DNA from: Rhodococcus sp. AW25M09
Lineage (GTDB): Bacteria; Actinomycetota; Actinomycetes; Mycobacteriales; Mycobacteriaceae
Direction: 5' to 3'
Assembly (NCBI RefSeq): GCF_000333955.1
Contig: NZ_CAPS01000009.1
Coordinates: 62,001-126,000, forward strand
DNA length: 64,000 bases
The notes under the pieces are model-generated. The model was not told the origin of the DNA. It saw only the letters and a program-made list of their open reading frames with translations, and ran no database searches. Below, piece after piece: positions 771 to 26,492 of this stretch (within the stretch, counting starts at the first letter, position 1; every line of letters starts with the position of its first letter). Both the position numbers and the translations under genes were made by a program.

Positions 771-1288
771 TTGGAGTCACCCGACGAGTCAACGGAAAAA
801 GGTGAACGCCGCTGCGCGGCCGATGTCGAGGCTCGGTCGGATCGGGAGCACCGACCAGTCGTTCGTCCCCCATTGACAGCGTCGATCGCGCCGAAGGCTT
901 CGCCGAACATGTTGAGCATTGACTGATAGGGAGCACTACGATCGACATGAGCGGAGTCGTGCCGCGCCGACCGACGCACGCAGGCAATTGGACAACTTTC
1001 GTCATTCAAACGGCATACGTCCTCGTGTCGTCCGACCGTCACCCTCGAGTAAAAGTCATATGCTCATGTCATCAACTGCCCGCGACCCGACACTGACGGT
1101 CCCTGCCGTCGCGTCATGGGCTACTACTCAGACTTGGCAGATCGCCCCGCCGACCCAATCGGACCTTCAACGCGCTAAATTGAGCCGACCAATGTAGCAT
1201 CTTCGCTGGCGATAGAGCGGAACCATCTCGAAGGCTCGACTGTCTACAACGTGAGATGGACTATCAACGTAAAGGATCGAGACTGGAC

Positions 1289-1858: not shown

Positions 1859-2718
1859 TGCCCAGGGTTAGTGTGCTGCTACCGGCAAGAAACGCAGGCT
1901 CGACCCTCGTCACTGCAATCAGGTCGACCCTACTGGCAATGCCTAGGGATAGTGAGCTGGTGGTTTTCGACGATGGAAGTACCGATTCGACCGCCGATGT
2001 GCTGGAATCGTTCTATGACAGGCGACTCCGAACAATCTCGGGATCAAACACTGGCGGAAGTGGTGTCGCCAACGCATTGAACACACTAATTGAGAATACA
2101 GACAGCGAAATCATCGCGAGAATGGACGCGGACGACATCACCCTTCCGCACCGATTTTGGCTGCAAGAGCGGCAGATGGACTCTTCAGGCGCAAAAGTCG
2201 AATTCGGCAACGTAATACATTTCGGGGTAGGATTCTCAATTCCTAGACCGTCGAGACCTGTCGGAATCAGCATACGGGCGATGCCCTTGGCGCTCCTGAT
2301 TTCCAATCCCGTGGCTCATTCGACGATGTTCGCAAGACGCGACGAACTGGTAAAGGCCGGCGGGTATCGTCCCGGTCCAGCCGAAGACTACGACCTTTGG
2401 TTGCGCCTCGCCACAGCGCGGGTCCCCATACACCGAGGCGCAACGCCGATACTCGCTTATCGCCACCACGCGAGTCAAGTTACGGCGAACACCGCATGGC
2501 TCGCTAAAGCGCGCATGGACCCAGCGGTAAAGTTAGCGTACCGAAACTGCCTCAAAGCCGTGCTGGGTGTAGATTCACAGGAAAAAGCGAATGAACCACT
2601 CGACCAGACTAATTACATCGTTGGCCTGAAAGCTGAAATATCTGCATTGCCTGATGGAGCCGATCGATCTTATCTTTCACGCTTCATGGCTGAAAAGTTC
2701 GGTAATGGATCTAGGTAG
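1858..2718 (+). CDS. GT2 family glycosyltransferase
   Basis: The N-terminus has the GT-A signature of family 2: VSVLLPARNAG, then VVFDDGSTDST (nucleotide-sugar binding aspartates) and ARMDADDI, the DXD-like metal site. A later GPAEDYDLWLRLA segment matches the ED..LW catalytic-base region of GT2 enzymes. At 286 residues it is a compact, soluble transferase with no evident membrane segment, expected to add one sugar to a lipid-linked repeat at the inner face of the membrane. It follows the acyltransferase with a one-base overlap and precedes a GT4 gene, so all three belong to one transcript. Donor and acceptor cannot be read from the sequence. Confidence 0.88.
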   Translation: MPRVSVLLPARNAGSTLVTAIRSTLLAMPRDSELVVFDDGSTDSTADVLESFYDRRLRTISGSNTGGSGVANALNTLIENTDSEIIARMDADDITLPHRFWLQERQMDSSGAKVEFGNVIHFGVGFSIPRPSRPVGISIRAMPLALLISNPVAHSTMFARRDELVKAGGYRPGPAEDYDLWLRLATARVPIHRGATPILAYRHHASQVTANTAWLAKARMDPAVKLAYRNCLKAVLGVDSQEKANEPLDQTNYIVGLKAEISALPDGADRSYLSRFMAEKFGNGSR

Positions 2719-2746
2719 CTTAAGAATCATCAAGTACGGAGAAGCA

Positions 2747-3910
2747 ATGCGGGTACTGATTGGATATAGTTATGCATCGAATAACCGAGATGCGGTAGCC
2801 AACGCAATTAACGACCTCGCGAAGGGGTTGTCGGAAGCTGGAGTGCAGACAGTTGTATACAAACAATACGATCCTTACCAAGAGAGGTCCCAACCGGTAC
2901 CCGGGACAATCGCAGAGTCGTTCCGCAAGGTCAACCGACTGAAGGGGCAACTGCTGTACCTGGCGGGGTTCACCTTGCATCTGATTCGCACCGCATCAAC
3001 GATCGACTGCGTCATTACGCTGGATACACCATCAGGACTTGCCTTTACGGGAAAACTCGCGAAGCTTGTCTCTCGTGGCAGAATCAAACATGTTGCGTGG
3101 ATCATGGACCTGTACCGACTCCAGTCACGCAACCAAGAAAATAGCCCATCTAGTCGACTACGTGACGCACGACTAAAGTTTGAGACGGCAACCATAAAGT
3201 CTGCCGACAAGGTGGTCGTGCTGGGAGAGTGCATGCAGGTGGAGTTGCGGAGAAATGGAATTTCAGAATCCGTTGTACTGCCTATCTGGCACAACGCGAG
3301 CAGCACTCTTCCAATCCCGAAACCAGAAGCAAAGGCTGCGTACTACCGGAGTAGCGACTTTATCGTCATGTATAGCGGTAACGCTGGAGTAGCACATCCG
3401 CTAGACGGCCTAGTGAGGGCCGCGGAAATTCTGAAGAACGAAAAACAGATCCGCTTCATTGTCAGCGGCCATGGCAAATCCTACGACTCAGCACAGAAAC
3501 TTGCTAGGCAAGCTGGCCTCGAGAATATCGAGTTCACATCAGGAGTTCCGTTCCACGAATTGAGCCTCTACCTAAGTAGCGCAGATATTCACGTAGTGTG
3601 TTTGAGCGAGCAGGCATTGGGCTCGTGCGTACCCTCGAAGGCATACGGAGCGATGGCCGCTGCGAGGCCAATTCTCTTCCTGGGTTCCGCAGGGTGCCAA
3701 GTTGCGTTGGATGTTGACGAGGCGCAGTGCGGCTACTGTATACCGACCGACGAAGCAGAGAAGATCGCAAACACCATATTTTCGCTCTACCGCCAACCAA
3801 GCCTCACCGACCAAATGGGCCGGAACTCCCGCCTATATTTTGAGGACCAACGGACTTTAGCAACTGGGGTCACACGATGGTCGCAGATGCTGAGGACAGT
3901 CATCGACTAA
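2747..3910 (+). CDS. GT4 family glycosyltransferase
   Basis: A GT-B enzyme of about 387 residues. The N-terminal domain starts MRVLIGYSYASNNRDAVA, and the C-terminal domain contains YSGNAGVAHPLDGLVRAAEIL, FIVSGHGKSYD, and SADIHVVCLSEQALGSCVPSKAYGAMAAARPILF, the family-4 donor-binding block. An upstream ATG at 2654 lies inside the previous gene; the start at 2747 is chosen because GGAGAAG sits three bases before it and the conserved N-terminal strand begins there. It ends in a 4-base convergent overlap with the flippase gene on the other strand, so no intergenic terminator fits between them. Sugar specificity unknown. Confidence 0.87.
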   Translation: MRVLIGYSYASNNRDAVANAINDLAKGLSEAGVQTVVYKQYDPYQERSQPVPGTIAESFRKVNRLKGQLLYLAGFTLHLIRTASTIDCVITLDTPSGLAFTGKLAKLVSRGRIKHVAWIMDLYRLQSRNQENSPSSRLRDARLKFETATIKSADKVVVLGECMQVELRRNGISESVVLPIWHNASSTLPIPKPEAKAAYYRSSDFIVMYSGNAGVAHPLDGLVRAAEILKNEKQIRFIVSGHGKSYDSAQKLARQAGLENIEFTSGVPFHELSLYLSSADIHVVCLSEQALGSCVPSKAYGAMAAARPILFLGSAGCQVALDVDEAQCGYCIPTDEAEKIANTIFSLYRQPSLTDQMGRNSRLYFEDQRTLATGVTRWSQMLRTVID

Positions 3911-5178
3911 CCTCGAACCGCTTCAGAGCCAGGAGCCAGATCGAATGAGACCGTCTCGGCAACGCGATCCAGTTTGAATCTTCTCTTGGAGAGGAACACG
4001 TCGACTGAAAATTGCACGCCGGCGCTCAACGCAATTGCTATGTAGAGCAGCACCATCTCATGGAAAATAAACGCCATTCCTCCGACAGCAACTAGGGTCG
4101 GAATTCCCGCTATTCGGGCGGCCACTATATCCCAACGGGCTTTGCTTGATTTGAGGTAAGCCGACCAGGGACCACTCGCAGAATAGAACGGGTATTGTAT
4201 TGCTAAGATTGACGTATAGACTAGCGAAACCCCGGCAATTAAGTTAACACCGGAAAATTGCAACAATGAAAGCGCAAAGATGCAACAGGATGCAACTGCG
4301 AGAGTCACTGCACCTGCGGTCAACGACATACGAACCAGCGTACTGATATGCGAAACTCCACGGGAAATTGATACGAAGTTTGCAGTAGCTAAGGCGACCA
4401 TGACGAGACCGACAGGCGCCAAAACAGACGAACTCAGTCTGTAATATCCCGCAGCCTCGATGGAGAACACACTGAAAGCCATAACGATGCCAAAGTTGAA
4501 GATAAGCTGAAAGGTCAGCGCCTCCAAAACCGAGTAAGCGACAAGGCCAGAACTAGAATTCTTGACCCTGCCAACTCCGCCTGATGTTGGGCGAACAAAT
4601 CCCGCGAGCAGAATCCCGATTAACAGACTCGACAACGACGCCGCTGACCACGCTCGGAATACGGACGCACCATCGGCCAGCAAGCCGTTGAGACCATATG
4701 CAACTAGCGAGAGGAGCCAATACAGATCCATGGCCAAAGTTCGCGCAGGCTTCGCCTTCGCGAAATTAACCTGTCGCACATAATCCTGAATGACGATAAA
4801 ACCGCCGGCTAGAACTAGTGCGGTTCGCACGTTCACGTCAAGTGATACAGAAACCAAAAGACTAGCGGTGCATAGCGTGAAGGCAAACAAAGTGACTAGT
4901 ATCAGATAGTCCGTCTGAATTTGTGTTTGCTTACTCAAAAGCATCGGTTCGATAAACAATGCCCTGCTAAGCCCCAGACACACGGCTGTAACAGAGGCGT
5001 AAATCGCAGACTGCCCTACATCGGCGATACCACCGAAATGCGCAACCAGGAGGGTGAACGCCAGATTGTTGAGCGAGTAGACCCCCTGCGATGCAATGAT
5101 CAAATTCCGTGGGTTCGCCAGTCGTACTGACAACCTATTTGTGTCATTTTTCTTTCTATGCCGATTCATTCTAGGCAC
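3907..5178 (-). CDS. Wzx-like polysaccharide flippase / multispanning membrane protein
   Basis: About 423 residues with roughly twelve hydrophobic helices separated by short polar loops (for example LIIASQGVYSLNNLAFTLLVAHFGG, ALVLAGGFIVIQDYVRQVNFAKA). The RQVNFAKAKPA loop and general shape fit the oligosaccharide flippase/PST group that moves lipid-linked repeat units across the plasma membrane. Family assignment rests on topology and context, not on a unique motif. It is the last gene of a minus-strand set that also contains the GT4 and WecB-type genes upstream (5207-7176). The base composition is low in GC (25 of 60 in the line starting at 4201), suggesting this segment was acquired separately. 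Confidence 0.75.
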   Translation of the reverse strand: MPRMNRHRKKNDTNRLSVRLANPRNLIIASQGVYSLNNLAFTLLVAHFGGIADVGQSAIYASVTAVCLGLSRALFIEPMLLSKQTQIQTDYLILVTLFAFTLCTASLLVSVSLDVNVRTALVLAGGFIVIQDYVRQVNFAKAKPARTLAMDLYWLLSLVAYGLNGLLADGASVFRAWSAASLSSLLIGILLAGFVRPTSGGVGRVKNSSSGLVAYSVLEALTFQLIFNFGIVMAFSVFSIEAAGYYRLSSSVLAPVGLVMVALATANFVSISRGVSHISTLVRMSLTAGAVTLAVASCCIFALSLLQFSGVNLIAGVSLVYTSILAIQYPFYSASGPWSAYLKSSKARWDIVAARIAGIPTLVAVGGMAFIFHEMVLLYIAIALSAGVQFSVDVFLSKRRFKLDRVAETVSFDLAPGSEAVRG

Positions 5179-5206
5179 CGATTTCTACCACGCCAGTGTC
5201 CCTGAT

Positions 5207-6355
5207 CTATACAGCATTATCAGCCACTACTCGCTCATATATTCTGTTAATCGATCGTTGCCAAACATCTATGCCGAACTTCTGAATGTAGTTGGACCTT
5301 GCCTTCATTCGCATCTCCGCTCCCTGCCGCAGGACTGAATTCAGTGCCGTCGACAGGGAGCTATCTGCAAATGGACTGTAAACGGCCCCGGAACCATTCG
5401 CCGTAAGCGCCTTCACCGAGGCAAGCTTGTCGGAGACTATGAGCGGCGTCCCAACAGCAAGAGCCTCCAAAGCGACAGTAGGTATACCCTCACTCCACAA
5501 GCTGGGTATCACCAGCCCATCCGATGCGGCGATCAAGTCGAGGGTCTTGGTTGAGTCCGTCCTGCCCAACGTCCTAATATCGAGAGAGGACGATGCGACC
5601 ATCTCGTTGACAGTGGAGTCAAGAGGCCCACTCCCGACAATGTCGAGCGCAAGGCCGACCGGCCATGACCGCAGGAGTTGCACAATTCCTTTTTCGTCCG
5701 TTAGCCTGCCCACGTAGATAAAACGATTTCGTCTTCTCGAACTAGGCTGAGCCCTCGCATTAGCAAAATTCGGTACCGTGACGATCCTGGATTCAGGGAG
5801 ATACGTTCTGTAGAGGTCTTCGGCAGCAGAATTTAGAGTTATCAGAGTGTGCGGGTGCGCCAGAGTCGGACGTCTGGCGACGTCACCGAAACTTGCGATT
5901 GCCAGTGGCAATGTCGCCACCATCGATCCGCGATAGCATTTATGGACAACTGCTCGAATGCTGTTCCGGTCCAGGCACTCAGTGCAGGGTCTACCATCTC
6001 TGAACAGGGTTGCGGAAGCACAGACTGCACGGTAGTTGTGCAGCGTCTGCACAGTCTTCCGTCCCCAGAAAGACAACCAGTTCGATCGCCAGTTTGGGAA
6101 TAAGTTATGAACGTGCACTACATCGGGATCAAACGAGGTTAATTGACTCGCAGGGTCTGAACCGGCGATGTTGGCGGTTGTTAGCGCCGCGCGAAGGCCG
6201 TAAAGGCGGCGATTTGATTCGCTGTCAGTCTCCTTTGAGATAAGTAAGACCTCGTGACCGGCCGCTCGCAACTGAATAACCTGGTCTGAAACCACTGTAT
6301 TTTCACCACTGGGGCTTTGCCGGCTGTAGAAACTATGCACTACGGCAATTTTCAT
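5207..6355 (-). CDS. GT4 family glycosyltransferase
   Basis: A GT-B transferase of about 382 residues. It starts MKIAVVHSFYSRQSPSGENTVV, has VHVHNLFPNW in the N-terminal domain, and in the C-terminal domain RNRFIYVGRLTDEKGIVQLLR, DIVGSGPL, and SLWSEGIPTVALEALAVGTPLIVSD, the E(x7)E-type donor site. The frame is open upstream to 6496, but the start at 6355 overlaps the stop of the WecB-type gene by ATGA, typical of coupled EPS genes, and begins exactly at the conserved strand. It most likely adds an internal sugar to the repeat unit made by this low-GC block. Confidence 0.87.
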   Translation of the reverse strand: MKIAVVHSFYSRQSPSGENTVVSDQVIQLRAAGHEVLLISKETDSESNRRLYGLRAALTTANIAGSDPASQLTSFDPDVVHVHNLFPNWRSNWLSFWGRKTVQTLHNYRAVCASATLFRDGRPCTECLDRNSIRAVVHKCYRGSMVATLPLAIASFGDVARRPTLAHPHTLITLNSAAEDLYRTYLPESRIVTVPNFANARAQPSSRRRNRFIYVGRLTDEKGIVQLLRSWPVGLALDIVGSGPLDSTVNEMVASSSLDIRTLGRTDSTKTLDLIAASDGLVIPSLWSEGIPTVALEALAVGTPLIVSDKLASVKALTANGSGAVYSPFADSSLSTALNSVLRQGAEMRMKARSNYIQKFGIDVWQRSINRIYERVVADNAV

Positions 6356-7176
6356 GCTTTCGCTCGCTTCATTTTCCACAGCGCCCGCTCTGCATTCACG
6401 ACAAATCGCGGATTTCCAAATAGATAGCGCTTCCACAGCCGTCGCGGCTCGGTTGCTAAGCGGAACACCCACTCCAACCCAGAGTTCCGAATCCATTCAG
6501 GGGCTTCAGATGCCGTACCCGCTAAGAAGTCGAACGCCGCACCGACACCCGCTGTCGAGACCTGCAACCGGCGTGATAGTTCTGCGCTTGCGAAGTCTTG
6601 CTTCGGTGCACCAAGGGCAACCCAGACGAAATTCGGGCTGCACGGGGAAATTGCCTCCACGGATCTTTCGTAGAAGGTTTCATCTAGGGGTCCAAATGGT
6701 GGGGAATAGCTCCCTACGATCACGGCCCCAGGGTATTTGTCTTGAATAGAAGCCGTCAGTAGTGCCAAAGTCTCTTCAGAGGCTCCGAGCAGGAAGTGAC
6801 GTAGATCATGCCGCCTGCCTTTGTCGAGTAGCATCTCGAAGAATGAGGGGCCTCGGACTGGCCTGCAAGTGACATGCCGACCAGTACGGCCCACTTTGAG
6901 TGCTCTGCGCATGTACCAGCTGACCGGTGTCCCGTCAGGGAAGTTGATTCCGGAGGAGCGCAACAGATTCTTATAACTCCGATCACGTGTCGCCTCTGCA
7001 ACTGAGTATGCGTTCGCAAACCGCAGTGTTATGCCGTCGGATGCCGGATCGGCAATCGCAGAAAGCACGTCTTCTACGGCATCGCTCAACGTTGTGACTT
7101 GGAACGGTATACCCGCAACGAGTGCGGAGCGGCGATGAAGTGCATGCCCTTCGCCCGCCCCATTACTTCCGGTCAT
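6352..7176 (-). CDS. WecB/TagA/CpsF family glycosyltransferase (GT26)
   Basis: Contains the family hallmarks FANAYSVAEATRD, GINFPDGTPVSWYMR (catalytic Asp in the PDG motif), HFLLGASEETLALL, VGSYSPPFGPL and WVALGAPKQDFAS, followed by GVGAAFDFLAGTASEAPEWI and the C-terminal LEWVFRLATEPRRLWKRYL. Such enzymes transfer N-acetylmannosamine, N-acetylmannosaminuronate or glucose to a lipid-linked acceptor in wall polymer or EPS synthesis. About 274 residues, slightly longer than the typical 240-250. The ATG at 7176 has GGAG at a good distance; a GTG lies one codon earlier. First gene of the minus-strand block that continues to 3907. Confidence 0.9.
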   Translation of the reverse strand: MTGSNGAGEGHALHRRSALVAGIPFQVTTLSDAVEDVLSAIADPASDGITLRFANAYSVAEATRDRSYKNLLRSSGINFPDGTPVSWYMRRALKVGRTGRHVTCRPVRGPSFFEMLLDKGRRHDLRHFLLGASEETLALLTASIQDKYPGAVIVGSYSPPFGPLDETFYERSVEAISPCSPNFVWVALGAPKQDFASAELSRRLQVSTAGVGAAFDFLAGTASEAPEWIRNSGLEWVFRLATEPRRLWKRYLFGNPRFVVNAERALWKMKRAKA

Positions 7177-7396
7177 CACTCATCTCCATTAATCCGTCCT
7201 CGGTACCCGAGTTCGTGACAATCAGTACTGACTTGTGAACTGCACGATCCGCCGCTCCGTGGCGGTTGGTTGCTGCTGCGCAGGACGGCAGTCATCTATT
7301 GCTAACGAAACTGAGTCTACGGTTGGATACTGTAATCTCGCTTGCCGAGGTGATGGCCGCGTAGCACCGCGGAGGTCAGCACTCGATCGACGGGGT

Positions 7397-8329
7397 TCAC
7401 GAACCCGAGATTGCGCCGATAATTCTGCGGCCCAAACCGTCGTCGAACGGCGGACCCCAAGGAATCTGCACCTGCCAACATTCGACAATCCTCGCCAGCT
7501 GAGACATCTCTCCAAAGTTGCGCAGCAGCCAGCCGTGGTCGATCCAACCCAGCATTCGTGGAGCGGCCAGCAGTTGCTTGAGGGCGTCGGGAGCGGCCAA
7601 CTTGACTGCTACGACGCTATCGATGTCCCGTCTCGGCATCGGAAACACGCAGGCGCGAAGGGGAAGGGCATCCTCCGCTGCTGCCGCTACGGAAACGGCT
7701 GTGCGTCCGTCCGAGGTTCCCCGGTACGACGACACCGAGCCCCCGTCCGACAGGGCAGCCGAATTTTCCCGCAAGCGAAGCTCGCTCGCAGAGACGTAGA
7801 CACGAGGATTGGACCCCAGGTCGACACGAAGCACATCGTCGGAAATCAGCGGATAACCAGCTTCCGCCAGCAAAGCGGCAACAGTCGACTTACCTGACCC
7901 CGACGGCCCGACCACGGCTATGGCGTCGCCTCGGACTTTCGCAGCACTTGCGTGCAGCACCGTGTGACCCTTCAAGCCAAGCCAAACTGCCAACAACGCG
8001 CCTGCCGCCATGACATCCAGGATGTCGTGATGTTGCGCCTCCAAGTCGGGGTGCGCGACGAAAACGGTGCCGTCGTCATTGCTCCCGAAATGTCCGACAG
8101 CGGGTATCAGCAACCTCGTCTTGCCACCGGAGATCTCGACACGGTGACCTCTCCCAGAGTTGTCCACGAGCTCGTTCACCACGAGAGCATCGCCGGACGG
8201 GCTTGGAACCGGCATCGGTCTACCTCTGACGATGGAGAGGTCGACCTTCCGATCAGCATCCGTGTCGACAGGGAGGTTCAGATCGAGGTCACTCGAGATC
8301 GAATATCCGTGCGCTCGGTACAGGTTCAT
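7397..8329 (-). CDS. HPr kinase-like protein, probable lasso-peptide tail kinase
   Basis: A P-loop protein of about 310 residues with Walker A GPSGSGKST at 141-149, preceded by LHASAAKV, and followed by YPLISDDVLRVD at about 160-170, the arrangement of the HPr kinase/phosphorylase C-terminal domain. The start at 8329 has GGAAG six bases before it; the frame is open further upstream but without a better site. In lasso-peptide clusters of the paeninodin type, HPr-kinase homologues phosphorylate the C-terminal serine of the precursor. Here the predicted core also ends in serine and the gene lies next to B2 and the precursor, so that role is inferred. Transcribed away from B2; 150 bases between them must hold two promoters. 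Confidence 0.85.
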   Translation of the reverse strand: MNLYRAHGYSISSDLDLNLPVDTDADRKVDLSIVRGRPMPVPSPSGDALVVNELVDNSGRGHRVEISGGKTRLLIPAVGHFGSNDDGTVFVAHPDLEAQHHDILDVMAAGALLAVWLGLKGHTVLHASAAKVRGDAIAVVGPSGSGKSTVAALLAEAGYPLISDDVLRVDLGSNPRVYVSASELRLRENSAALSDGGSVSSYRGTSDGRTAVSVAAAAEDALPLRACVFPMPRRDIDSVVAVKLAAPDALKQLLAAPRMLGWIDHGWLLRNFGEMSQLARIVECWQVQIPWGPPFDDGLGRRIIGAISGS

Positions 8330-8479
8330 TTCTTCCGTCTCGTGAGAACCAAGAAGCAGGCTGGCATGGAATACCATCCGAGCAGTGCGGCAACGGCCGC
8401 CGAGCCCACGTACAACGGCATATCCGCGCGGACGCTGAAACTGGCCATAATGTATCAGCCACCCCCTAGAAGGAACCCC

Positions 8480-8923
8480 ATGCACTCCAGAGCTTCCTCA
8501 TCGACCGGCCGAGCCGTCGAGCAGATCATCACCGCGGTTCGATTGGCCGCTCTGGTCATTTTCGTCGAGTTGGCCCTCCGTGTCACTAGCCTCGAACGCG
8601 TATGCCGGCTTCTCGATGTGTCATTCGACGTCTCGACCTGTGCCTCCACAGATCTTTACGACCAATCAGATCCCCACGTTGTACGCAGTCAGCGGCGAGT
8701 AGAGCGAGTTTCTCGGCGAATCGGTCTGGGAGACCGCTGCCTACGCCGGTGTGTGGTGCTCGCAGTCGAGATCCGAGATAGCACCCCAATACTTCGCATT
8801 GGTGTACGTCGTTTGAATGACAAAAGCTTTGCCGCGCACTCATGGCTCGAGCTAGCTGGAGGCAGCCTGGATTCGGACGCCAACCAATACCAGCCGGCAG
8901 TAGACCCCCGCCGTGCTCGCTGA
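8480..8923 (+). CDS. Lasso peptide biosynthesis B2 protein (transglutaminase-like leader peptidase)
   Basis: About 147 residues. The C-terminal half matches the B2 family: GDRCLRRCVVLAVEIRD carries the catalytic cysteine (Cys87), RIGVRRLNDKSFAAHSWLELAGG the catalytic histidine (His120), and an aspartate follows at 131 or 133. The helical N-terminal stretch ITAVRLAALVIFVELALR is also usual. B2 cuts the leader from the precursor after B1 delivers it. An open frame extends far upstream through the antisense of the kinase gene; the ATG at 8480 is selected because AGAAGGA precedes it by six bases and the B2 homology begins directly after. The precursor gene follows on the same strand after about 120 bases. 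Confidence 0.88.
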   Translation: MHSRASSSTGRAVEQIITAVRLAALVIFVELALRVTSLERVCRLLDVSFDVSTCASTDLYDQSDPHVVRSQRRVERVSRRIGLGDRCLRRCVVLAVEIRDSTPILRIGVRRLNDKSFAAHSWLELAGGSLDSDANQYQPAVDPRRAR

Positions 8924-9042
8924 CCGCCGATTCGTGCAGCTCAGAGCCAGGGACAACGTGGGATTCAGGTGCTAGCCTTCACGCGGAGGGTCACATCGAA
9001 TTCTGGGTCATCGTTGCACACATCTCGAACGAAAGGGTTCAC

Positions 9043-9168
9043 ATGGACAAGCAGCAGTACACCGCACCATCGATCGAAGACCTTGGCACCATTGAAGAAC
9101 TGACAATGGCGTCCAGCTTCTCTTTCAAAGCCGACAACAGGACCGGCCTGCCGGTCGCGGGATCGTGA
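9043..9168 (+). CDS. Lasso peptide precursor (predicted core ASSFSFKADNRTGLPVAGS)
   Basis: A 41-residue peptide. The 22-residue leader matches the actinobacterial consensus YxxPxLxxxGxxxxxTx with Tyr6, Pro9, Ile11, Gly15 and Thr21, the last two residues before the cut being Thr-Met. The remaining 19-residue core starts with Ala and has Asp at core position 9, the spacing needed for a nine-membered macrolactam between the Ala1 amine and the Asp9 side chain. The core ends in Ser, the residue phosphorylated in paeninodin-type peptides. GAAAGG lies upstream of the ATG. A stem-loop follows at 9172-9210. The boundary is a motif-based prediction; the motif fit and the surrounding B1, B2, C and D genes make it strong. 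Confidence 0.9.
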   Translation: MDKQQYTAPSIEDLGTIEELTMASSFSFKADNRTGLPVAGS

Positions 9169-9171
9169 CAA

Positions 9172-9210
9172 CTCGGTGGTTGGGCGACGCTTAACTGCTC
9201 AACCACCGAG
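9172..9210. terminator. Stem-loop between convergent lasso precursor and cyclase genes
   Basis: CTCGGTGGTTG at 9172-9182 pairs perfectly with CAACCACCGAG at 9200-9210 around a 17-base loop. It lies four bases after the precursor stop and 14 bases before the end of the opposing cyclase gene, so it can act on both transcripts. No long T tract follows on either strand, which is common in high-GC actinobacteria. It could also stabilise the short precursor mRNA. Confidence 0.65.
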
Positions 9211-9223
9211 AACCCGGTTTCGC

Positions 9224-10459
9224 TCAACGTACGGAGTTGTGGCCATCACTCAGCCACGCTTGCTGCAACAGCATTGCTGATTGCAGTGTTACCAGGTTCT
9301 GCATCCAGGCGTCACGTAACCGGGACACGTCGACGTCCGGAGACTCAATCCCCGCTCCATCCCACTTAGCAGCAAAGCTTTTTGTGTCCTCACCGAACCT
9401 CGATCGGTTGAAGAACGCTTTACTCTCTCGATCAATAACGCTATCTGGCAACATTCCGTCAGACAACAGGCGCATACTTTGGCTACGCGATATACCGAAA
9501 TAGTCGATGTGACCAAACCACGAGTCGATAAACTGGAAATCCAGGAACGGATCCACGGGGATACAGTCGAAAAGTCCCGCTATTCGATCTCTAGTTTCCA
9601 ACGATACTTGCACCGCCCGCGTCTTCAGCTTTCTTCGCACTTCACTCTTCCATCCAAAATCATCATCAGCGGCCTGCTTGACGGAGGCGAAAAGTCCGTG
9701 AAGTGCGTCCTCCGTCAGCCAGGTAATGCCCGTCAGCATTGCGATTTCCTCCGCACCGATTGATCGCATGGATGGGAAAAGAGGTCTCACGACCCGCCTC
9801 ATAGAAGTGCGACCAGAATATTTCAATTCCGATATTGAGCGACGAAAACGGTAAGATCTAGAATTCGCGAACAATTCGTCTCCGAATTCGCCGGTTACGA
9901 GAGACCCTCCCGCGGCGAATTGGTAGTCGAACAAGCTTGCGCCCGAGGCCGGCGGGAAAAAAGGACGCCCATTCATGGTGAGCAGATCAGTAAGAGGCTT
10001 TCCTAGTATGTCGAACTCAGTCGTAACGTCGTTTGTTATCCATTCAACCGGGAGGTCCAGCAAACGCAGATGATCGACAACGCGGTGTTGCCACACCGTC
10101 TCCTGGGCATCGACGTCCTCAGCGGGGTAGCGATGCGTCAAGGCCACCGGCCCTGGCAATCCGTGCTTCTTCGCAACCATCGCAGCCCTGGCGAGGAGTA
10201 GAGATGAGTCTCGACCACCGGAGAATGTGATAACGCACGGAGACTTCGTGAGGGCGTTCAGCAGTATCGTGTCAAGCACCTGGATCGGATGATCGGAAGG
10301 CCCGCGCCGCATCGGTGGTGAATTCTCCTGGATCGAACTGTCTGACATGCCGATCGGAAATCCATATGCAATTTCCCTATCGGTCAACTCCGGCAGCATG
10401 CCTGTCGAACCGAGGTAATCCATAACTTGCGATCTCCATTCGTAGCTACCGATGAACAC
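9224..10459 (-). CDS. Lasso peptide macrolactam synthetase (asparagine synthase-related protein, C)
   Basis: Residues from about 70 form an asparagine-synthetase synthase domain: VITFSGGRDSSLLLA (PP-loop pyrophosphatase motif at 80-86), GSLVTGEFGDELFAN, and a long helical C-terminus. It would adenylate the Asp9 side chain of the precursor and close the ring on the Ala1 amine. At 411 residues it is clearly shorter than usual lasso cyclases, because the N-terminal glutaminase-like domain is not recognisable; only about 70 leading residues precede the PP-loop. The start at 10459 has no strong ribosome site and an ATG at residue 13 is an alternative. GC is low (27 of 60 in the line starting at 9421). 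It faces the precursor gene and diverges from B1. Confidence 0.85.
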   Translation of the reverse strand: MFIGSYEWRSQVMDYLGSTGMLPELTDREIAYGFPIGMSDSSIQENSPPMRRGPSDHPIQVLDTILLNALTKSPCVITFSGGRDSSLLLARAAMVAKKHGLPGPVALTHRYPAEDVDAQETVWQHRVVDHLRLLDLPVEWITNDVTTEFDILGKPLTDLLTMNGRPFFPPASGASLFDYQFAAGGSLVTGEFGDELFANSRSYRFRRSISELKYSGRTSMRRVVRPLFPSMRSIGAEEIAMLTGITWLTEDALHGLFASVKQAADDDFGWKSEVRRKLKTRAVQVSLETRDRIAGLFDCIPVDPFLDFQFIDSWFGHIDYFGISRSQSMRLLSDGMLPDSVIDRESKAFFNRSRFGEDTKSFAAKWDGAGIESPDVDVSRLRDAWMQNLVTLQSAMLLQQAWLSDGHNSVR

Positions 10460-10523
10460 CCGGTCGAGTCCGAAGATACTGTATCGTGAACCGACACGAA
10501 TTCGCCATCAGATGGGGTCAGCC

Positions 10524-10778
10524 ATGCAACTTCGCTCTCAAGATCTCGCCGTCAGCCAGTTGGATGACGAGACAGTACTTCTCGATCTGCGTAAATCATC
10601 GTACATATCGATCAAAGGGTCTGGCGTCGAGCTTGTTCGGCTCCTCAGCGACAACAGAAGCGAGACGGACCTAGTCTCAGCCCTCGTTGCAAAATTCGAT
10701 GTGGGCGAAGCACAAGCAGCCACCGACGTGCGACAATTTTTGGACGGAATGCGTGATCGCGGCCTTCTCGACGAGTAG
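10524..10778 (+). CDS. PqqD-like lasso peptide leader-binding protein (B1)
   Basis: An 84-residue PqqD-fold protein: RSQDLAVSQLDDETVLLDLRKSSYISI forms the expected strands and FLDGMRDRGLLDE the terminal helix. In lasso systems this RiPP recognition element binds the leader (around the YxxPxL motif) and presents the precursor to B2 and C. The frame is open to 10452 with several upstream ATGs, but family proteins begin close to the MQLRSQDL position and GGGG lies upstream. The leader would overlap the 5' end of the divergent cyclase gene if an earlier start were used. Ends 12 bases before the ABC gene that faces it. Confidence 0.88.
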   Translation: MQLRSQDLAVSQLDDETVLLDLRKSSYISIKGSGVELVRLLSDNRSETDLVSALVAKFDVGEAQAATDVRQFLDGMRDRGLLDE

Positions 10779-10790
10779 TTTGACCGAGAG

Positions 10791-12569
10791 TCAATCGAAT
10801 GTGGAAGACTGCAAACGAAAAAGCGTAGAATACTCCCCCGCTTGCGCCATCAAATCTTCGTGTGTCCCGCTCTCGGTTATCCGACCCTCATGCATGACGT
10901 AAATTGTGTCCGCCAACCGCGCGCTCGAAATTCGATGAGTAATCAATACTGCTGTTTTTCCGAATAGCGTCTCGCGCATCTGTTGAAACAAGGCGTATTC
11001 GGCACGTGGGTCGAGAGACGCACTGGGCTCGTCGAGAATGACCATCGGCGCGTCTCGATACAGAGTTCGCGCAATGGCAATCCGTTGCCATTGGCCTCCA
11101 GATAGATCGGATCCTGGCTCGAAGATATTGCCGAGTAGCGTGTCGAGACCGTCAGGTAACTTCGCCGCAAACTCCGTGGCACCCGCCTTGGACAGGACAG
11201 AATGCACCCTCTCATCCAAATCGGCGTCACCGAAATCTGACAGTGCTACATTTTCGACAACACTCAAATGATACTCGACAAAGTCTTGAAACAAACATGC
11301 AACAGAAGCAGTGACAATCTGAGTGTCCCCCAGTTCCTCGCCGTTCCATAAATAGCGTCCAGATAGTGGCGAATAGAGACCTGCCAACACTTTTGCCAAC
11401 GTAGTCTTTCCGGATCCATTGGAACCGACCAACGCGATAACTTCACCAGGTCTAATTGCAAGGTTTATGTCTTGTAAAGCAGCGGTGTTCGATTCCGGAT
11501 ACATGAATGCGATGTTCTCGAGGCGTACGGCAGGTGGGGCGTCCTGACGTACCGTGAGAGGAATCTCGCGCGAGTATTCACGCACGAACTCTTGATGGTC
11601 CTTGAGAAAAGGAACAGCCTCGGCCAACGTACCAACTGAGGAGAACGCGGTGGAAAACTGAGACGCCAGCAACCTGGACCCAACGGCCGCTGCAGCCGCC
11701 GAAGACACGCTCAGGTCACCGTCAGAAACAAGTAGAAACACGTACCCGAGCGCCAAAGCCAGAGCAACACTGTTGATAATTGCAGTCGCGACGGCGTCGA
11801 ACTGTCGAGATCGAGCTGCATTCTTCAGCCTGACGAAGTAGTCGGTGTTGAGGGCAGTTTGACGGGCACTGAGAAAATCTGCGGTTTCGAATGATCGCAA
11901 CTCTGCGGCATTCGGCTTCATCCCCATCAGCATTCGGATATACGAACGCCGTCGGTCGATCACATTTGCTCCAGTAGCGAACTGGAACTCCGTCCTACTG
12001 GAACGTGCGGCAAAGTACAGCGAGGGAATACCTGACATCAATATCAACGCAACGAGGAGCGGATTGATCGTGGCGAGCGCGATACACATACTGCCCGCTC
12101 CGATCACGCCCCCGAAAAGTGAGGACATCGCCGTCACCGTCTGCAAAGGTCGCGTCAGCGCGTTCTGCTGAATCCGTTCCAATGTCCCCAGAAAGTCGGG
12201 TGACTCGTACAACTCGAGTTCTACCGTAGTCGTCACAGACTGGAGATCCGACCACAGACGTTGAGACACACGTTCGCCCAGAACTCGCTGTTGCTGAACC
12301 TGGATCGCCGCGATGGACGAGACACCCGCAGTACAGACCGCAAGCAAAACCAGCGGAGCAACCAATCGCAACCCTCTGCCGGTCTCTGACGCAAGCAGAG
12401 CGTCCAGAGCGAGTTTGCTGGCAAATACAACGAGGACCGCCAGTGCAGCGCTCAAAATTTGTAACACGAATGTGAAGGACGCACCCCGCCGATCCGACTC
12501 GAAGACCGTTCTCACAGCGGTGACAATGTATCGGAGTCCACCGATTTTCTTGATGCGCGAGTCACCCAT
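10791..12569 (-). CDS. ABC transporter, fused membrane and ATPase domains (lasso exporter/immunity, D)
   Basis: A 592-residue half-transporter. The first about 330 residues hold some six membrane helices (FVLQILSAALAVLVVFASKL and others). The ATPase domain has Walker A ALVGSNGSGKTTLAK, Q-loop region SVACLFQDFVEYHLS, signature DLSGGQWQRIAIARTL, Walker B MVILDEPSASLD and H-loop VLITHRISS. It probably works as a homodimer exporting the mature lasso peptide and giving self-protection. No C39 peptidase domain is present, as expected when B2 cuts the leader. The nucleotidyltransferase gene upstream on the same strand ends about 40 bases before it, so they are probably co-transcribed. Confidence 0.9.
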   Translation of the reverse strand: MGDSRIKKIGGLRYIVTAVRTVFESDRRGASFTFVLQILSAALAVLVVFASKLALDALLASETGRGLRLVAPLVLLAVCTAGVSSIAAIQVQQQRVLGERVSQRLWSDLQSVTTTVELELYESPDFLGTLERIQQNALTRPLQTVTAMSSLFGGVIGAGSMCIALATINPLLVALILMSGIPSLYFAARSSRTEFQFATGANVIDRRRSYIRMLMGMKPNAAELRSFETADFLSARQTALNTDYFVRLKNAARSRQFDAVATAIINSVALALALGYVFLLVSDGDLSVSSAAAAAVGSRLLASQFSTAFSSVGTLAEAVPFLKDHQEFVREYSREIPLTVRQDAPPAVRLENIAFMYPESNTAALQDINLAIRPGEVIALVGSNGSGKTTLAKVLAGLYSPLSGRYLWNGEELGDTQIVTASVACLFQDFVEYHLSVVENVALSDFGDADLDERVHSVLSKAGATEFAAKLPDGLDTLLGNIFEPGSDLSGGQWQRIAIARTLYRDAPMVILDEPSASLDPRAEYALFQQMRETLFGKTAVLITHRISSARLADTIYVMHEGRITESGTHEDLMAQAGEYSTLFRLQSSTFD

Positions 12570-12611
12570 ACAGCAGCCGTCTCGACCACAATCCTGCCAA
12601 CGCCACGTTGA

Positions 12612-13508
12612 TCACAACCCTGTGCCCTTTCGGTACCGCGCATAATCGCGAACAGCTGCCCGCAAGTCTGCAACTCCGCGACCTGCTCGCCGAAGTCTCG
12701 ACATCGGCGGTGACAGCCGAATCAGACTATTCGATCGGTCACCGAAATCGATGGCGCGGGAACTCGGCCATAGCGCGGCTGCGAGCAGGCCGGCCTTCTT
12801 ACTCCACGGTGCCGTCGATATCTGGATGAACCAGAAACTGGTGCGCGTCGTCGCGACCTGGCGCATCCGCCAGTCGGGTGAGGGTTCCTCGACAGCAGAA
12901 GCAGTGACGTCCAGCCCTACATCCGCGAAAAACTTGGAGGTCGACCGCAGCACTTTCCACTCTGCCGCCAAGAGAAATAGGGGCTGAACTCGATGCGCTT
13001 CAGTTGCTTCGACAAGCTCCCGATACTCGAGGGCCCGCAACAGCTCTCGGTCGGCGGACACTTCTCCGGTCTCGGGCCGGAGGGCGTGCATGGCCGCAAT
13101 CAACGTGTGGGCGAGAACATTCGGTACGACAACGTGTTTACCGCCGATTGCCCTCCGTTCGGTGTTGGCCCACAACACCTCGAACGACTCGTGCGGCTGC
13201 AAATCCGACCCAGGAAAGTAGTGGTGCGCATCGACCTCGACGCCCATCACGTCATTCCTGAGAGTCGTCGAATGCCACAGTGCCAACGCCGGGTCACGGC
13301 GGCCGAAGCCCATCGCTTCCAGCCGCACGATGAACGCGGGCATGTCGTGCGGGGCGACCCAGACGTCCACATCGACCGAAGCCACTCTTGTTCGCAGACC
13401 CTGCGCCTGTAGCGTCGTTCCCTTGATGAACACACACCGGAGCCCTGACTTCTCCGCGACGTCGGCAATCAGCGGGTAGACGAGCTCCATGATGTGCTCT
13501 CGCTGCAT
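12612..13508 (-). CDS. Nucleotidyltransferase family protein (NTP_transf_5-like) of the lasso locus
   Basis: About 298 residues with LRCVFIKGTTLQAQGL, followed by SVDVDVWVAPHDMPAF, the DxD metal site of the minimal nucleotidyltransferase fold, then EVDAHHYFPG and VPNVLAHTLIAAMHAL. The family recurs in kinase-containing lasso clusters; in the pseudomycoidin system a homologue is reported to decorate the phosphorylated serine, though I recall this only in outline. A role in tailoring the peptide is inferred from position. The frame also opens from a TTG at 13574; 13508 (ATG) is preferred on family length, and 13490 is a further option. It precedes the ABC gene on the same strand. Confidence 0.75.
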   Translation of the reverse strand: MQREHIMELVYPLIADVAEKSGLRCVFIKGTTLQAQGLRTRVASVDVDVWVAPHDMPAFIVRLEAMGFGRRDPALALWHSTTLRNDVMGVEVDAHHYFPGSDLQPHESFEVLWANTERRAIGGKHVVVPNVLAHTLIAAMHALRPETGEVSADRELLRALEYRELVEATEAHRVQPLFLLAAEWKVLRSTSKFFADVGLDVTASAVEEPSPDWRMRQVATTRTSFWFIQISTAPWSKKAGLLAAALWPSSRAIDFGDRSNSLIRLSPPMSRLRRAGRGVADLRAAVRDYARYRKGTGL

Positions 13509-14302: not shown

Positions 14303-15289
14303 CTACGTTCGGACGCTGTCGACGTGCTCTCGATACCACTCGACCGTTGAAGCAATTCCCGCTTCCAAGTCGATCTGCGGCTTCCATCCCGCATCCCGCA
14401 GCTTGTTCACGTCGAGCAGTTTCTGCGGCGTTCCGTCCGGCTTGGATGTGTCCCACTCGGTTTCACCCTCGTAGCCCACGGCCGAGGCGACGATGCCGGC
14501 GATCTCCTTGATCGTCGCGTCCTCGCCGGTACCGACATTCACTTGATCGGGACCGTCATAGTGCTCCAGCAAATGGATACACGCAGCTGCCATATCGTCG
14601 ACGTGCAAGAACTCTCGTCGCGGGGAGCCACTGCCCCAGTTGGTCACCGTCTCGATGCCGTCGCGGCGAGCCTCGTCGTAACGACGGATGAGAGCAGGCA
14701 GGACGTGCGAACCCTTCGGTGAAAAGTTGTCGCCCGGGCCGTACAAATTGGTCGGCATCGCCGAAATCCACGGCAAGCCGTACTGCTTGCGTACCGACTG
14801 AATCTGCAGGATGCCTGCGATCTTGGCGATGGCGTACGCATCGTTGGTCGGCTCGAGGTGCCCGGTGAGGAGGTACTCCTCCTTGATCGGCTGAGGAGCC
14901 AGCTTGGGATAGATGCACGAAGACCCGAGGAACAACACTCGCTGAACGTTCTGTGCGAGAGCAGCATCCAGCACGTTCACCTGAATTCTCAGATTGTCCG
15001 AGAGGAAGTCGACCGGGTACGTGCTGTTGGCCAGGATGCCGCCCACCTTGGCTGCAGCCAACACCACTGTCTTCGGCTTGGTCGCCTCGAAGAACGTGAA
15101 GACTGCATCACGGTCCTTGAGATCCAGCTCCGACGACGATCGACCGATCAAGTCACTGAATCCCGACGCTTCGAGCTGACGCCAGATAGCCGAGCCCACC
15201 AGACCGCGGTGCCCCGCCACATAGAGTGGAGCGTCACGATCGAGCGGACCTGGCGTGTAGTCGGGTCCGGTCGATTCACCTGCTGTCAT
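14303..15289 (-). CDS. fcl: GDP-L-fucose synthase
   Basis: A short-chain dehydrogenase/reductase-fold epimerase-reductase of about 328 residues that converts GDP-4-keto-6-deoxy-D-mannose to GDP-L-fucose with NADPH. Visible features are the Rossmann glycine motif VAGHRGLVGSA, VVLAAAKVGGI, FLGSSCIYPKLAPQPI with the catalytic Ser/Cys, YAIAKIAG (YxxxK), and NLYGPGDNF. The start at 15289 lies five bases after the gmd stop, so the two steps of GDP-fucose synthesis are coupled; an upstream ATG would run into gmd. Together with gmd it shows that this strain can put fucose in its polysaccharide. Confidence 0.95.
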   Translation of the reverse strand: MTAGESTGPDYTPGPLDRDAPLYVAGHRGLVGSAIWRQLEASGFSDLIGRSSSELDLKDRDAVFTFFEATKPKTVVLAAAKVGGILANSTYPVDFLSDNLRIQVNVLDAALAQNVQRVLFLGSSCIYPKLAPQPIKEEYLLTGHLEPTNDAYAIAKIAGILQIQSVRKQYGLPWISAMPTNLYGPGDNFSPKGSHVLPALIRRYDEARRDGIETVTNWGSGSPRREFLHVDDMAAACIHLLEHYDGPDQVNVGTGEDATIKEIAGIVASAVGYEGETEWDTSKPDGTPQKLLDVNKLRDAGWKPQIDLEAGIASTVEWYREHVDSVRT

Positions 15290-15294
15290 GGAAT

Positions 15295-16317
15295 TCACGC
15301 CCAATCCGGCAGCGACGGGCGGTCGATCCACGGGCGACCCTCGTGCTCGAGTGCTGCGATGTCGGCATCCACCATGATCTTCGCCAGTTCCGGGGTGTGC
15401 ACCGTAGCCTTCCAGCCGAGCTTCTCCTCAGCCTTGCTGGCGTCACCGACGAGTGCGTCGACCTCGGTGGGTCGGAGATACCGCTCGTCGAACTTGACGT
15501 GCTTCTCCCAGTCCAGGCCGGCCCGCTCGAATGCAACTACCAGGAAGTCCTTCACGGAGAAGTTGCCGCCGGTCGCGAGAACGAAGTCGTCCGGCTCGTC
15601 GGCCTGCAGCATGCGCCACATGCCCTCCACGTACTCGGGTGCGTAGCCCCAGTCTCGGATGGCGTCCAGGTTGCCCATGTAGACGTTCTGCTCGAGCCCC
15701 GCCTTGATGCGTGCTACGGCACGCGTGATCTTGCGGGTAACGAAGGTTTCGCCGCGTCGCGGTGACTCGTGATTGAAGAGGATGCCATTGACGGCGAAGA
15801 TGCCGTACGCCTCGCGGTAGTTCTTGGTGACCCAGTAGGCGTAGACCTTCGCCGCGCCGTATGGGGAGCGTGGGTAGAACGGAGTCTCTTCGTTCTGAGG
15901 CGGCGGAGTTGCCCCGAACATTTCGGAGCTCGACGCCTGATAGAAGCGGCACTGCAGGCCCGCCAAGCGCACTGCCTCCAGCAGTCGGATGGAACCGATG
16001 CCCGTGGTGTTGCCGGTGTGTTCCGGCTCGTCGAAGCTCACCCGGACGTGCGACTGAGCACCCAGGTTGTAGACCTCATCCGGCTGGATCTCGGTGAGGA
16101 GGGTGACCAGACGAGCGCCGTCACTCAAGTCGCCGTAATGCAGGAAAAGCTTGGCGTCCGTCTCGTGCGGGTCCTGGTACAGGTGCTCGATGCGGGACGT
16201 GTTGAACGTCGACGACCGACGAATCAGGCCGTGCACCTCGTAACCCTTGTTGAGCAGCAACTCCGCAAGATATGAACCGTCCTGGCCGGTGATGCCGGTA
16301 ATCAACGCGCGTTTCAT
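15295..16317 (-). CDS. gmd: GDP-mannose 4,6-dehydratase
   Basis: About 340 residues starting [22 protein letters not shown], the NADP-binding motif of Gmd. It continues with [53 protein letters not shown] (catalytic Thr/Ser-Glu region), and [13 protein letters not shown] with YxxxK. It dehydrates GDP-D-mannose to the 4-keto-6-deoxy sugar used by Fcl. The ATG at 16317 begins the Rossmann strand; the frame is open to 16380 without a better site. It probably forms a two-gene transcript with fcl, downstream of the sugar transferase gene. Confidence 0.96.
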
Positions 16318-16440
16318 CGTTTCCACTCTTTCTAGGATCAGTGCCTGATTCCGATATGCAATGAGCTGGGTGCAATTCAACCAGTTTTCGGTGCCACCGC
16401 ACCTGATGGACCCCGGTGCTGCGGTTCGGCACGCTGTTGC

Positions 16441-17952
16441 TCAATACGCCCCGTCGCTTCCGGCAACCGCCTTCAACGTCTTGGCGATGATCAGCAGATC
16501 GCCCACCATCGACCAATTCTCGACGTAGGAAAGATCCAGTCGGACAGCCTCTTCCCACGACAGATCGGATCTCCCACTGACCTGCCACAAACCTGTGACC
16601 CCCGGCTTGACCAGCAACCGCCGACGAACCTCACCGTCGTAGGTCTCGACCTCCCGGCGCAAGGGGGGCCGCGGCCCCACCGCGCTCATGTCGCGCTTGA
16701 GAACGTTGATGAACTGCGGAAGTTCGTCGAGACTGAACCGCCGCAAGATCTTGCCGACGGACGTCACACGGGGATCGTCACGCATCTTGAACAGAATCCC
16801 GCCGGCACCTTCGTTTTGATCGAGCAGGTGGGCGACCTGCTTATCCGCGTCGACAGTCATACTGCGGAACTTGATCATCGAAAACGGCTTGCCATCGATG
16901 CCCATCCGCTCGGATCTGTAGAACACCGGGCCGCGACTCGTGCTCTTGACTGCGATCGCGACTACCAACATGATCGGCGAAATCAGAATGAGCACCGCTG
17001 CCGCGAACGTCAGATCGAACGCGGTCTTGCTGAAGCGAGTCGCTCCGTTGTACTGAGGCTTCTCCACGTGGATCAATGGGAAGCCGGCGACGGGCCGCAT
17101 GATTAACCGGGGACCCGCCACGTCGACAACTCCGGGCGCGACCACCAGGTCGACGTGTTTTTTCTCGAGGTCCCAGATCATTTTGCGGATACCTTCATTG
17201 CCCAGATGCTCGGTGGCAGTAACAGCAACGGTGTCCGCCCCGGACTCTTCGATCGCCGCCAGTACATCGTTCTCGTCGCCTAGAACTGGAATATCGACAT
17301 CGTCGAGATGTACTCGGCCGTCAGCTGGTGCCTCGTATCCGGGCATGCAGATTCCGACCACCGAATAACCTGCTGAAGGCGCTCGCGCGAACGACTGAGC
17401 CATGGATACGGCGGCCTCACGGCTACCGACGATGAGAACAGATGTCTGGTAGTCGCCCCTGCTGCGAAAACTCGCGACAGTCTTGCGCCAAACCCAGCGG
17501 CTGACAAGCAGAGCCATGAGGCCGACCGGCAGCGCGATAGCCAGGTACAAGCGGGCGAATTCGATCCGAAACAACAAGGACACGATCGCAATTACACCGA
17601 ACAGCCGAAAAGTCGCGGAGACAATCCGGCGATACTCTTCCGCCCCGTTTCCGATCACCCGCGGGGATCGAGTGCGGAATATGCCGAGGAATGTCAGCCA
17701 TAGCCCCGCGAGCGCCACGGACACGCTGGTGTAGACAGTCGTTCCTGAGAGCCCAGACTCCTCGACGATCCCGAACCGTACAAGTTGAGCCAGCGCAACG
17801 GCAAAAACGACCGCCAGTACATCGGTCACACGCAGCTGAGCAATGTACTGAGCTTCCCATATGTGACGTGCTGTGAGAGTTCGGATGTTCGACCTCCGGG
17901 ACCACGAGGGCGATCTCCCCGTAGATCGTTGTGCCGACCCAACTATAGCCAC
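16441..17952 (-). CDS. Initiating sugar-phosphate transferase (polyprenyl glycosylphosphotransferase), copy 1
   Basis: About 503 residues: four N-terminal membrane helices, a central Rossmann-like CoA-binding-type domain (VLIVGSREAAVSMAQSF), a fifth helix (FAAAVLILISPIMLVVAIAVK) and the bacterial sugar transferase domain with GPVFYRSERMGIDGKPF, IKFRSM, RFSLDELPQFINVLKRDMSAVGPRPPL and TGLWQVSGRSDLSW. It loads the first sugar-1-phosphate on undecaprenyl or decaprenyl phosphate. The GTG start at 17952 follows GGGGGAGGAGGG; the longer frame to 18045 has no such site. It is very similar throughout to the gene at 19881 and less so to that at 24938. Confidence 0.92.
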   Translation of the reverse strand: MAIVGSAQRSTGRSPSWSRRSNIRTLTARHIWEAQYIAQLRVTDVLAVVFAVALAQLVRFGIVEESGLSGTTVYTSVSVALAGLWLTFLGIFRTRSPRVIGNGAEEYRRIVSATFRLFGVIAIVSLLFRIEFARLYLAIALPVGLMALLVSRWVWRKTVASFRSRGDYQTSVLIVGSREAAVSMAQSFARAPSAGYSVVGICMPGYEAPADGRVHLDDVDIPVLGDENDVLAAIEESGADTVAVTATEHLGNEGIRKMIWDLEKKHVDLVVAPGVVDVAGPRLIMRPVAGFPLIHVEKPQYNGATRFSKTAFDLTFAAAVLILISPIMLVVAIAVKSTSRGPVFYRSERMGIDGKPFSMIKFRSMTVDADKQVAHLLDQNEGAGGILFKMRDDPRVTSVGKILRRFSLDELPQFINVLKRDMSAVGPRPPLRREVETYDGEVRRRLLVKPGVTGLWQVSGRSDLSWEEAVRLDLSYVENWSMVGDLLIIAKTLKAVAGSDGAY

Positions 17953-18383
17953 ACACCCTCCTCCCCCGTACCAGATTTGCCAGCCCCACTCCGTTAGAGG
18001 CTCCGAACGACCGCCCGACCCGAAAGACGAACATACGTCGGGCACGCGTTTGCCCCGATCTTCTCACGTCGGTGCGACGTCGACAGGGCAGGCGATTCAG
18101 ATCACAGCTAATCCGCCCCGACCCCGAAATCACAACGGATTCGCGACAGCACAGAAGCCGGACTGTCCATGAATCGTGGCGTTGAATCCGAAATCCATTG
18201 CAGAGGAGCACAATTGGACGATTTTGTGATATCTCGCCAGTCGCTGAAAGATTGCTCGAAAGCGTGGCTGCCACGTCGAGTTCGATGCGCCAACGACGGC
18301 GTTGCTACACCGGGCCGCGAATTACAATGCGATATTCATCCGAGTGAATGACGCTGTAATTGGCCTACGAACCGCGGCAATTC
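17953..18383. other. Gene-free stretch upstream of sugar transferase copy 1
   Basis: About 430 bases between the start of the sugar transferase gene and the end of the UDP-glucose dehydrogenase gene. I see no credible coding frame, RNA gene or long repeat. It presumably holds the promoter and 5' leader of the 17952 transcript; a GGGGGAGGAGGG ribosome site sits at its left edge. Confidence 0.5.
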
Positions 18384-26491: not shown

Positions 26492-26492
26492 C

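Follow-up and report, generated by a model that had tools for sequence, protein, structure and literature searches.

A lasso-peptide locus with a kinase and a nucleotidyltransferase among exopolysaccharide genes of Rhodococcus sp. AW25M09

What is made by a compact group of genes that lies among exopolysaccharide (EPS) genes in an actinobacterium, and do the kinase and the nucleotidyltransferase at its two ends take part in making it? The question is raised by a 64,000-nucleotide stretch of the Rhodococcus sp. AW25M09 genome (the window), whose source assembly consists of 5.64 Mb in 166 contigs. The best explanation overall, to which we give a probability of about three in four, is a working lasso-peptide cluster with kinase and nucleotidyltransferase (NTase) tailoring that sits as a movable cassette in an EPS locus.

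Profile models and motifs identify seven lasso genes, K, B2, A, C, B1, D and N, on 6.1 kb (Table 1). The list of parts in the preliminary description, comprising a kinase, a B2 peptidase, a precursor, a cyclase, a B1 protein, an ABC exporter and a nucleotidyltransferase, is borne out at the positions it gave; the likely starts of K, B2 and N are corrected to 8329, 8480 and 13508. B1, B2, C, D and N pass Pfam or NCBIfam cut-offs, the leader of the precursor falls just below its own and the kinase matches weakly. Thus B1, B2 and the cyclase, the three proteins expected of a lasso cluster, are all present. B1 also matches two lasso_PqqD models below their cut-offs (51.1 of 70 and 41.1 of 80) and resembles the solved lasso leader binders TbiB1 and TfuB1, and its true start may lie inside the tabulated frame. 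The search of solved structures with C gave no match. The search of a plasmid collection found no relative of the cyclase or of the NTase. The UDP-glucose dehydrogenase gene of the window is 76% identical to a copy on a Rhodococcus plasmid.

Table 1. Features of the lasso locus and its flanks, in window positions
Feature	Positions	Strand	Description
K	7397..8329	-	HprK-like lasso precursor kinase; 310 aa from ATG; open frame extends to 8485
B2	8480..8923	+	Transglutaminase-like leader peptidase; NCBIfam lasso_biosyn_B2 NF033537 48 bits (cut-off 33); PF13471 44.4 bits, over cut-off
A	9043..9168	+	Precursor MDKQQYTAPSIEDLGTIEELTM/ASSFSFKADNRTGLPVAGS, 41 aa; lasso_leader_L3 16.8 bits (cut-off 19)
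Inverted repeat	9172..9210		15 bp, between convergent A and C; folds at -26.6 kcal/mol; unchanged in L005
C	9224..10459	-	Asparagine-synthetase-like lasso cyclase; PF00733 Asn_synthase 23.9 bits (cut-off 21); SGGRDSS motif
B1	10452..10778	+	PqqD-type leader-binding protein (RRE); PF05402 PqqD 58.5 bits (cut-off 23.4)
D	10791..12569	-	MsbA-like ABC exporter; ABC_tran 108.5 bits; best NCBIfam match MsbA, below its cut-off
N	12612..13508	-	PF14907 nucleotidyltransferase, 36.9 bits (cut-off 31.2); 42 bases upstream of D, same strand
Other flank (context)	1256..7179		Hexapeptide transferase, glycosyltransferases, protein 3907-5178, WecG-type transferase
Conserved EPS block (context)	14303..21479	-	GDP-fucose synthase, GDP-mannose dehydratase, sugar transferase, UDP-glucose dehydrogenase, sugar transferase

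The coding strand switches repeatedly along the locus: K is divergent from B2 and A, A and C are convergent, and C and B1 are divergent, their open frames sharing 8 bases. Because the genes lie on both strands, the locus should comprise several transcription units. N and D, separated by so short a gap, are probably on one transcript. The inverted repeat between A and C is a possible two-way terminator, and it is not among the calls of the terminator scan of the locus. Neither that scan (5 calls against 5.6 in shuffled sequences) nor the promoter scan (4 against 2.4, sd 1.8) rose clearly above shuffles.

The precursor has the features of a lasso substrate. Its leader, YTAPSIEDLGTIEELTM, contains YTAP, a hydrophobic position, a glycine and a threonine at -2, an aspartate is found within core positions 7-9, and the leaders of relatives align with it. 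The motif YxxPxLxxxGxxxxxTx, which had been described as complete, stands as a lasso leader overall, but position -12 is Ile and not Leu. The possibility that the peptide would score as a non-lasso RiPP did not materialize, the lasso-leader model being matched, though just below its cut-off. Judged from the conserved Thr at -2, the leader is probably cut after Met-1. The predicted core, ASSFSFKADNRTGLPVAGS, has 19 residues, with Asp9 as the acceptor and a C-terminal Ser19 in the ending PVAGS; further serines occupy core positions 2, 3 and 5. The calculated lasso [M+H]+ of the core is 1893.95.

The kinase is recognized through its motifs. Matches of K to the HprK_rel_A, HPr kinase and AAA_33 models are weak and all below cut-offs, and a search of solved structures with the single sequence leads to P-loop proteins generally. 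A profile of eight sequences, the window's included, matches the solved HPr kinases 2qmh, 1jb1, 1ko7 and 3tqf across the stretch that holds the His, the P-loop and the Asp-Asp pair, amid many ABC-type P-loops of similar score. The His, Lys, Asp and Asp that characterize the paeninodin kinase are found in K as H126, K147 (within GPSGSGKS), D164 and D165. The His, GKS and Asp-Asp are kept in 28 of 29 aligned kinases, the remaining one (L106) having Glu-Asp. K is 37-40% identical to the kinases of L035-L038 and L043, and structure prediction from the window and L005 sequences gave a mean pLDDT of 31.3. A weak match, 31% identical to the first 192 residues of K, was seen at 26167-26721 of NC_015658.1, a plasmid of the archaeon Halopiger xanaduensis.

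The preliminary description held that an actinobacterial version of the kinase and NTase set would be new. The claim does not hold, since the order has many such loci, two of which belong to the same genus. Cyclase matches occur in 3 of 37 genomes of the genus (the window's own included) and in 28 of 397 genomes of an even sample of the order. A PF14907 gene lies at most 8 kb from the cyclase match in 19 of 20 other genomes, the exception being G124, where the cyclase is on a 6.8-kb contig. Counted by B2, there are 94 lasso places in the 397 genomes (11 below the family cut-off, some on short contigs), and 25 of them have PF14907 within 12 kb, a limit set after part of the data had been seen; in G313 and G274 the cyclase and NTase lie elsewhere than the B2 place that was scored as lacking an NTase. 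The HprK-like kinase is present in 29 of 34 sources, namely the window and the fetched stretches L035-L054 and L096-L108, as counted with a kinase model derived from the same loci. Three stretches (L048, L054 and L107) have no NTase on them, and L054 and L107 have PF14907 matches on other contigs. In type, the locus is what it was first called, a lasso locus with kinase and nucleotidyltransferase, as models, motifs and the grouping of the NTase agree.

A single rule was applied to find precursors. Of the 31 from kinase/NTase-type sources, 21 have Ser as the last residue, compared to 1 of 20 from NTase-free lasso loci (Fisher 7e-6, kinship uncorrected; near-copies occur among L035/L036/L037 and among L099/L100/L102). 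The 31 include the Ser-ending precursor of L054, without which the count is 20 of 30. Ser is among the last two residues in 28 of 31 and 2 of 20, respectively; seven of the ten precursors without a Ser end belong to family f15 and mostly end in Ser-Leu, Ser-Ile or Ser-Ala. The rule yielded no precursor in seven of the 34 sources (L045, L046, L048, L098, L105, L107 and L108), and spurious matches were removed by eye, four in the first set (window, L041, L049 and L100) and five extra ones in the NTase-free set (L080, L082, L087, L091 and L093). The C-terminal Ser therefore tracks the kinase/NTase loci, as the known kinase chemistry would require (PMC9266682, PMC8498205).

That the kinase instead marks Ser2, Ser3 or Ser5 in the ring is suggested by the presence of these residues in the core and by BsfK, which is reported to mark Ser3 (PMC10368454). 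This reading is quite improbable. The C-terminal Ser is common to most relatives, and BsfA, as described there, combines a terminal Asp with Ile at -2, where the window precursor has a terminal Ser and, at -2, Thr.

The predicted acceptor position appears to vary among the relatives. The same-genus kinase/NTase precursors at L039:6301-6459 and L040:13443-13604 have no Asp or Glu in common within core positions 7-9: with Thr placed at -2, the G033 precursor has Asp8 and that of G013 has no Asp or Glu before position 13. The precursors at L041:7803-7970, L044:11060-11230 and L097:9430-9597 would, if Thr is at -2, have Asp10 and no acceptor at 7-9, which suggests a 10-residue ring or another cut site. 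Fused genes also occur: one 699-aa open frame at L051:6917-9013 holds NTase and B2, a fusion known from Firmicutes (PMC8498205), and one 649-aa frame at L050:9190-11136 holds B2 and cyclase domains.

N is very divergent, at most 25% identical to the other NTases, so its reaction may differ from theirs. In alignment it keeps the active-site residues KG...R...DVD and DAH. Structure prediction from the window sequence alone gave a mean pLDDT of 31.7, and the search of solved structures with N returned one irrelevant weak match. Could N be an EPS gene that adjoins the cluster by chance, leaving a product that is phosphorylated only, as paeninodin is? Its PF14907 score is low where 23 of 29 copies beside lasso genes score above 70 bits, and EPS genes follow it. 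This is nonetheless unlikely. A profile of 27 lasso-linked NTases scores N at 55.5 bits, and one of 16 NTases from other places at 6.9; the tree places it in the f15/f4 lasso-linked set with support 97/92 (end branch 2.68), nearest to the lineage of L046, L051, L052 and L098-L104; the active-site residues are kept, the exporter gene lies next to it, and nearly all relatives have a PF14907 gene near the cyclase. N is thus an NTase of the lasso-linked, PF14907-like kind that marks the pseudomycoidin type, although a divergent one. A stray, unrelated PF14907 copy was also considered as a source of N and was ruled out by comparison with the 16 non-lasso copies in profiles and tree.

A pattern-limited scan of a named collection returned a single near-identical locus, L005 (WLOB01000331.1, an Actinomycetota MAG contig). 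Its genes follow the window's order, from the start of B1 through C, A, B2 and K to the glycosyltransferase beyond WecG, and the contig stops short of the rest of B1, D and N. Relatives lacking the precursor had been named as a finding that would speak against the lasso assignment; this near-identical locus keeps it. All 126 bases of the precursor gene and the next 55 are identical, and 18 differences fall in the 119 bases that precede it; at the average rate of the locus the chance of an unchanged 126-base stretch is about 0.02. The two sequences give omega values of 0.067 (C), 0.221 (B2) and 0.215 (K), and these three genes are under purifying selection. A decaying or silent remnant would account for the patchy distribution, with the cluster present at this level of identity in 1 of the genus's 37 genomes, and for the mixed GC content of the genes (0.54-0.61). 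It is a very improbable account, given the lack of stops, the low omega values and the unchanged precursor gene beside a changing upstream stretch.

Taken from the sequence, then, the genes and motifs are in place and three of the genes are under selection, and the locus is a real and probably functional lasso cluster, its kind being known already. The chemistry is carried over, step by step, from studied relatives. B1 would bind the YTAP leader, and K would place a phosphate on Ser19 at the C-terminus of the still linear precursor. B2 would cut after Met-1, and C would form the bond between the Ala1 N-terminus and Asp9, leaving the tail threaded through the ring. N would add one or two sugars to the phosphate, as PsmN does in pseudomycoidin, and D would export the product. 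By analogy with these systems the tail of the product probably carries phosphate and sugar; the kinase and NTase precedents are PadeK, PsmK and PsmN (PMC9266682, PMC8498205).

The cluster looks assembled from more than one source, because C and K are nearest to L035-L038 (in the tree C joins their first cyclase with support 83/99) and N is nearest to another lineage. Mixed origin is the simplest reading of trees in which C and N have long branches. As a movable cassette, the cluster would have landed in a variable part of the EPS locus. A DUF218 gene separates N from the conserved EPS block; on the other flank, WecG and the next glycosyltransferase adjoin the lasso cluster in L005 too. The GC content of 1256-7179 is 0.53, compared to 0.62 for 22-64 kb of the window, which makes this glycosyltransferase-bearing flank of the EPS locus look acquired.

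Five other genomes of the genus (G022, G021, G014, G026 and G009) keep the fucose synthase-dehydratase-sugar transferase part, and the fetched stretches of about 17 kb beyond it hold no lasso genes; in G022 this stretch has flippase, O-antigen ligase and glycosyltransferase genes. In two further ones, G013 and G033, another kinase/NTase lasso cluster, with a cyclase about 30% identical, directly adjoins a sugar transferase-UDP-glucose dehydrogenase-sugar transferase block that resembles the window's. The three members of this block in G013 are 73%, 90% and 73% identical to those of the window, and a flippase lies on the far side. The remark that the locus is embedded between EPS genes was correct, and the embedding is apparently no accident of this genome, judging by G013, G033 and the distances to an EPS marker.

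With PF02397 sugar transferases as that marker, 9 of 25 NTase-bearing lasso places have one within 15 kb, compared to 0 of 69 others (Fisher 1.9e-6, unstratified), the 15-kb limit again having been set after part of the data had been seen. Widening the limit to 20 or 30 kb leaves the count unchanged, and narrowing it to 10 kb gives 7 of 25 compared to 0 of 69. Since several loci are close kin they are not independent; a test stratified by family gives a one-sided product of 0.002, or 0.0002 when G013 and G033, from outside the sample, are added. The effect is carried by family f16 (7 of 7 NTase-bearing places near the marker) and the window's own genus; f1 has 1 of 1 and f14 1 of 5, and f15 (0 of 8), f2 (0 of 2) and f4 (0 of 2) show none. 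Distance to a marker gene is no proof of joint function.

The actinobacterial pattern suggests a link of these clusters to surface glycans across phyla. According to PMC13381572, paeninodins and linear polyphosphorylated peptides (LPPs), both confined to Bacillota, are in Bacilli often encoded alongside capsular polysaccharide loci, their role being given there as unknown, and Butyrivibrio lasso clusters are reported to contain HPr kinase, nucleotidyltransferase and EpsH genes (PMC7533575). It is conceivable, if doubtful, that kinase/NTase lasso peptides are surface-glycan peptides and not free antibiotics, with phospho-Ser plus sugar as a handle for EPS. Such a role would explain why unrelated kinase/NTase cassettes lie in EPS loci of both Actinomycetota and Bacilli, and why lasso loci without the pair were not seen near EPS genes in this sample. 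If true, a knotted peptide would be made together with exopolysaccharide, or attached to it. The link to EPS loci, known from Bacilli, can now be tested in a second phylum, and is the part that merits pursuit. Actinomycetota are a phylum much mined for lasso peptides. With the pair so frequent across one of its orders, modified products may have been overlooked if species of +80 or +242 Da were not sought.

Rhodococcus lasso clusters in general are already known (PMC11433410), and kinase-bearing lasso clusters have been placed in Firmicutes and Proteobacteria (PMC8498205). The actinobacterial pattern is not described in the titles and opening parts of abstracts that were searched; actinobacterial cases may be listed in the RODEO survey (Tietz 2017) or in the papers that first described paeninodin and pseudomycoidin. 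In the account of PMC13381572, LPP clusters share with the window a B1-like RRE, an HprK-like kinase, an NTP transferase, an MsbA-like exporter and a site in a polysaccharide locus, but have a signal-peptidase-like enzyme and no cyclase where the window has C and B2. The paeninodin family has the same kinase residues and C-terminal Ser. Its RREs favour tryptophan-type (WxxP) leaders and it is restricted to Bacillota (PMC13381572), whereas the window has YTAP and its relatives, L005 included, are actinobacterial. Filing under paeninodin was considered and is ruled out by the YxxP leader; the early interpretation as a kinase/NTase lasso locus embedded in EPS genes is kept, without the paeninodin label and the claim of novelty. 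The Bsf cluster of Bradymonas sediminis also combines kinase and nucleotidyltransferase (PMC10368454), and the Thr at -2 sets the window apart from the Ile or Val of that subfamily. Within the same order, L035-L038, L043 and L049 have all core parts and a C-terminal Ser, with kinases 31-40% and cyclases up to 39% identical to those of the window; their gene order and strands differ, with B2 and kinase on one strand, and their NTase is of another subtype. L035-L038, unlike the window, have two cyclases and two precursors, served by one B1, one B2, one kinase and one NTase. A close likeness in composition is to pseudomycoidin (psm) of Bacillus pseudomycoides DSM 12442, a lasso cluster with an HprK-like kinase, a nucleotidyltransferase and a C-terminal Ser, the comparison being with its description in reviews. 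The locus of the window differs from it in being actinobacterial, in its very divergent NTase and in the position of N, which comes before D here and between B2 and D in Firmicutes (PMC8498205).
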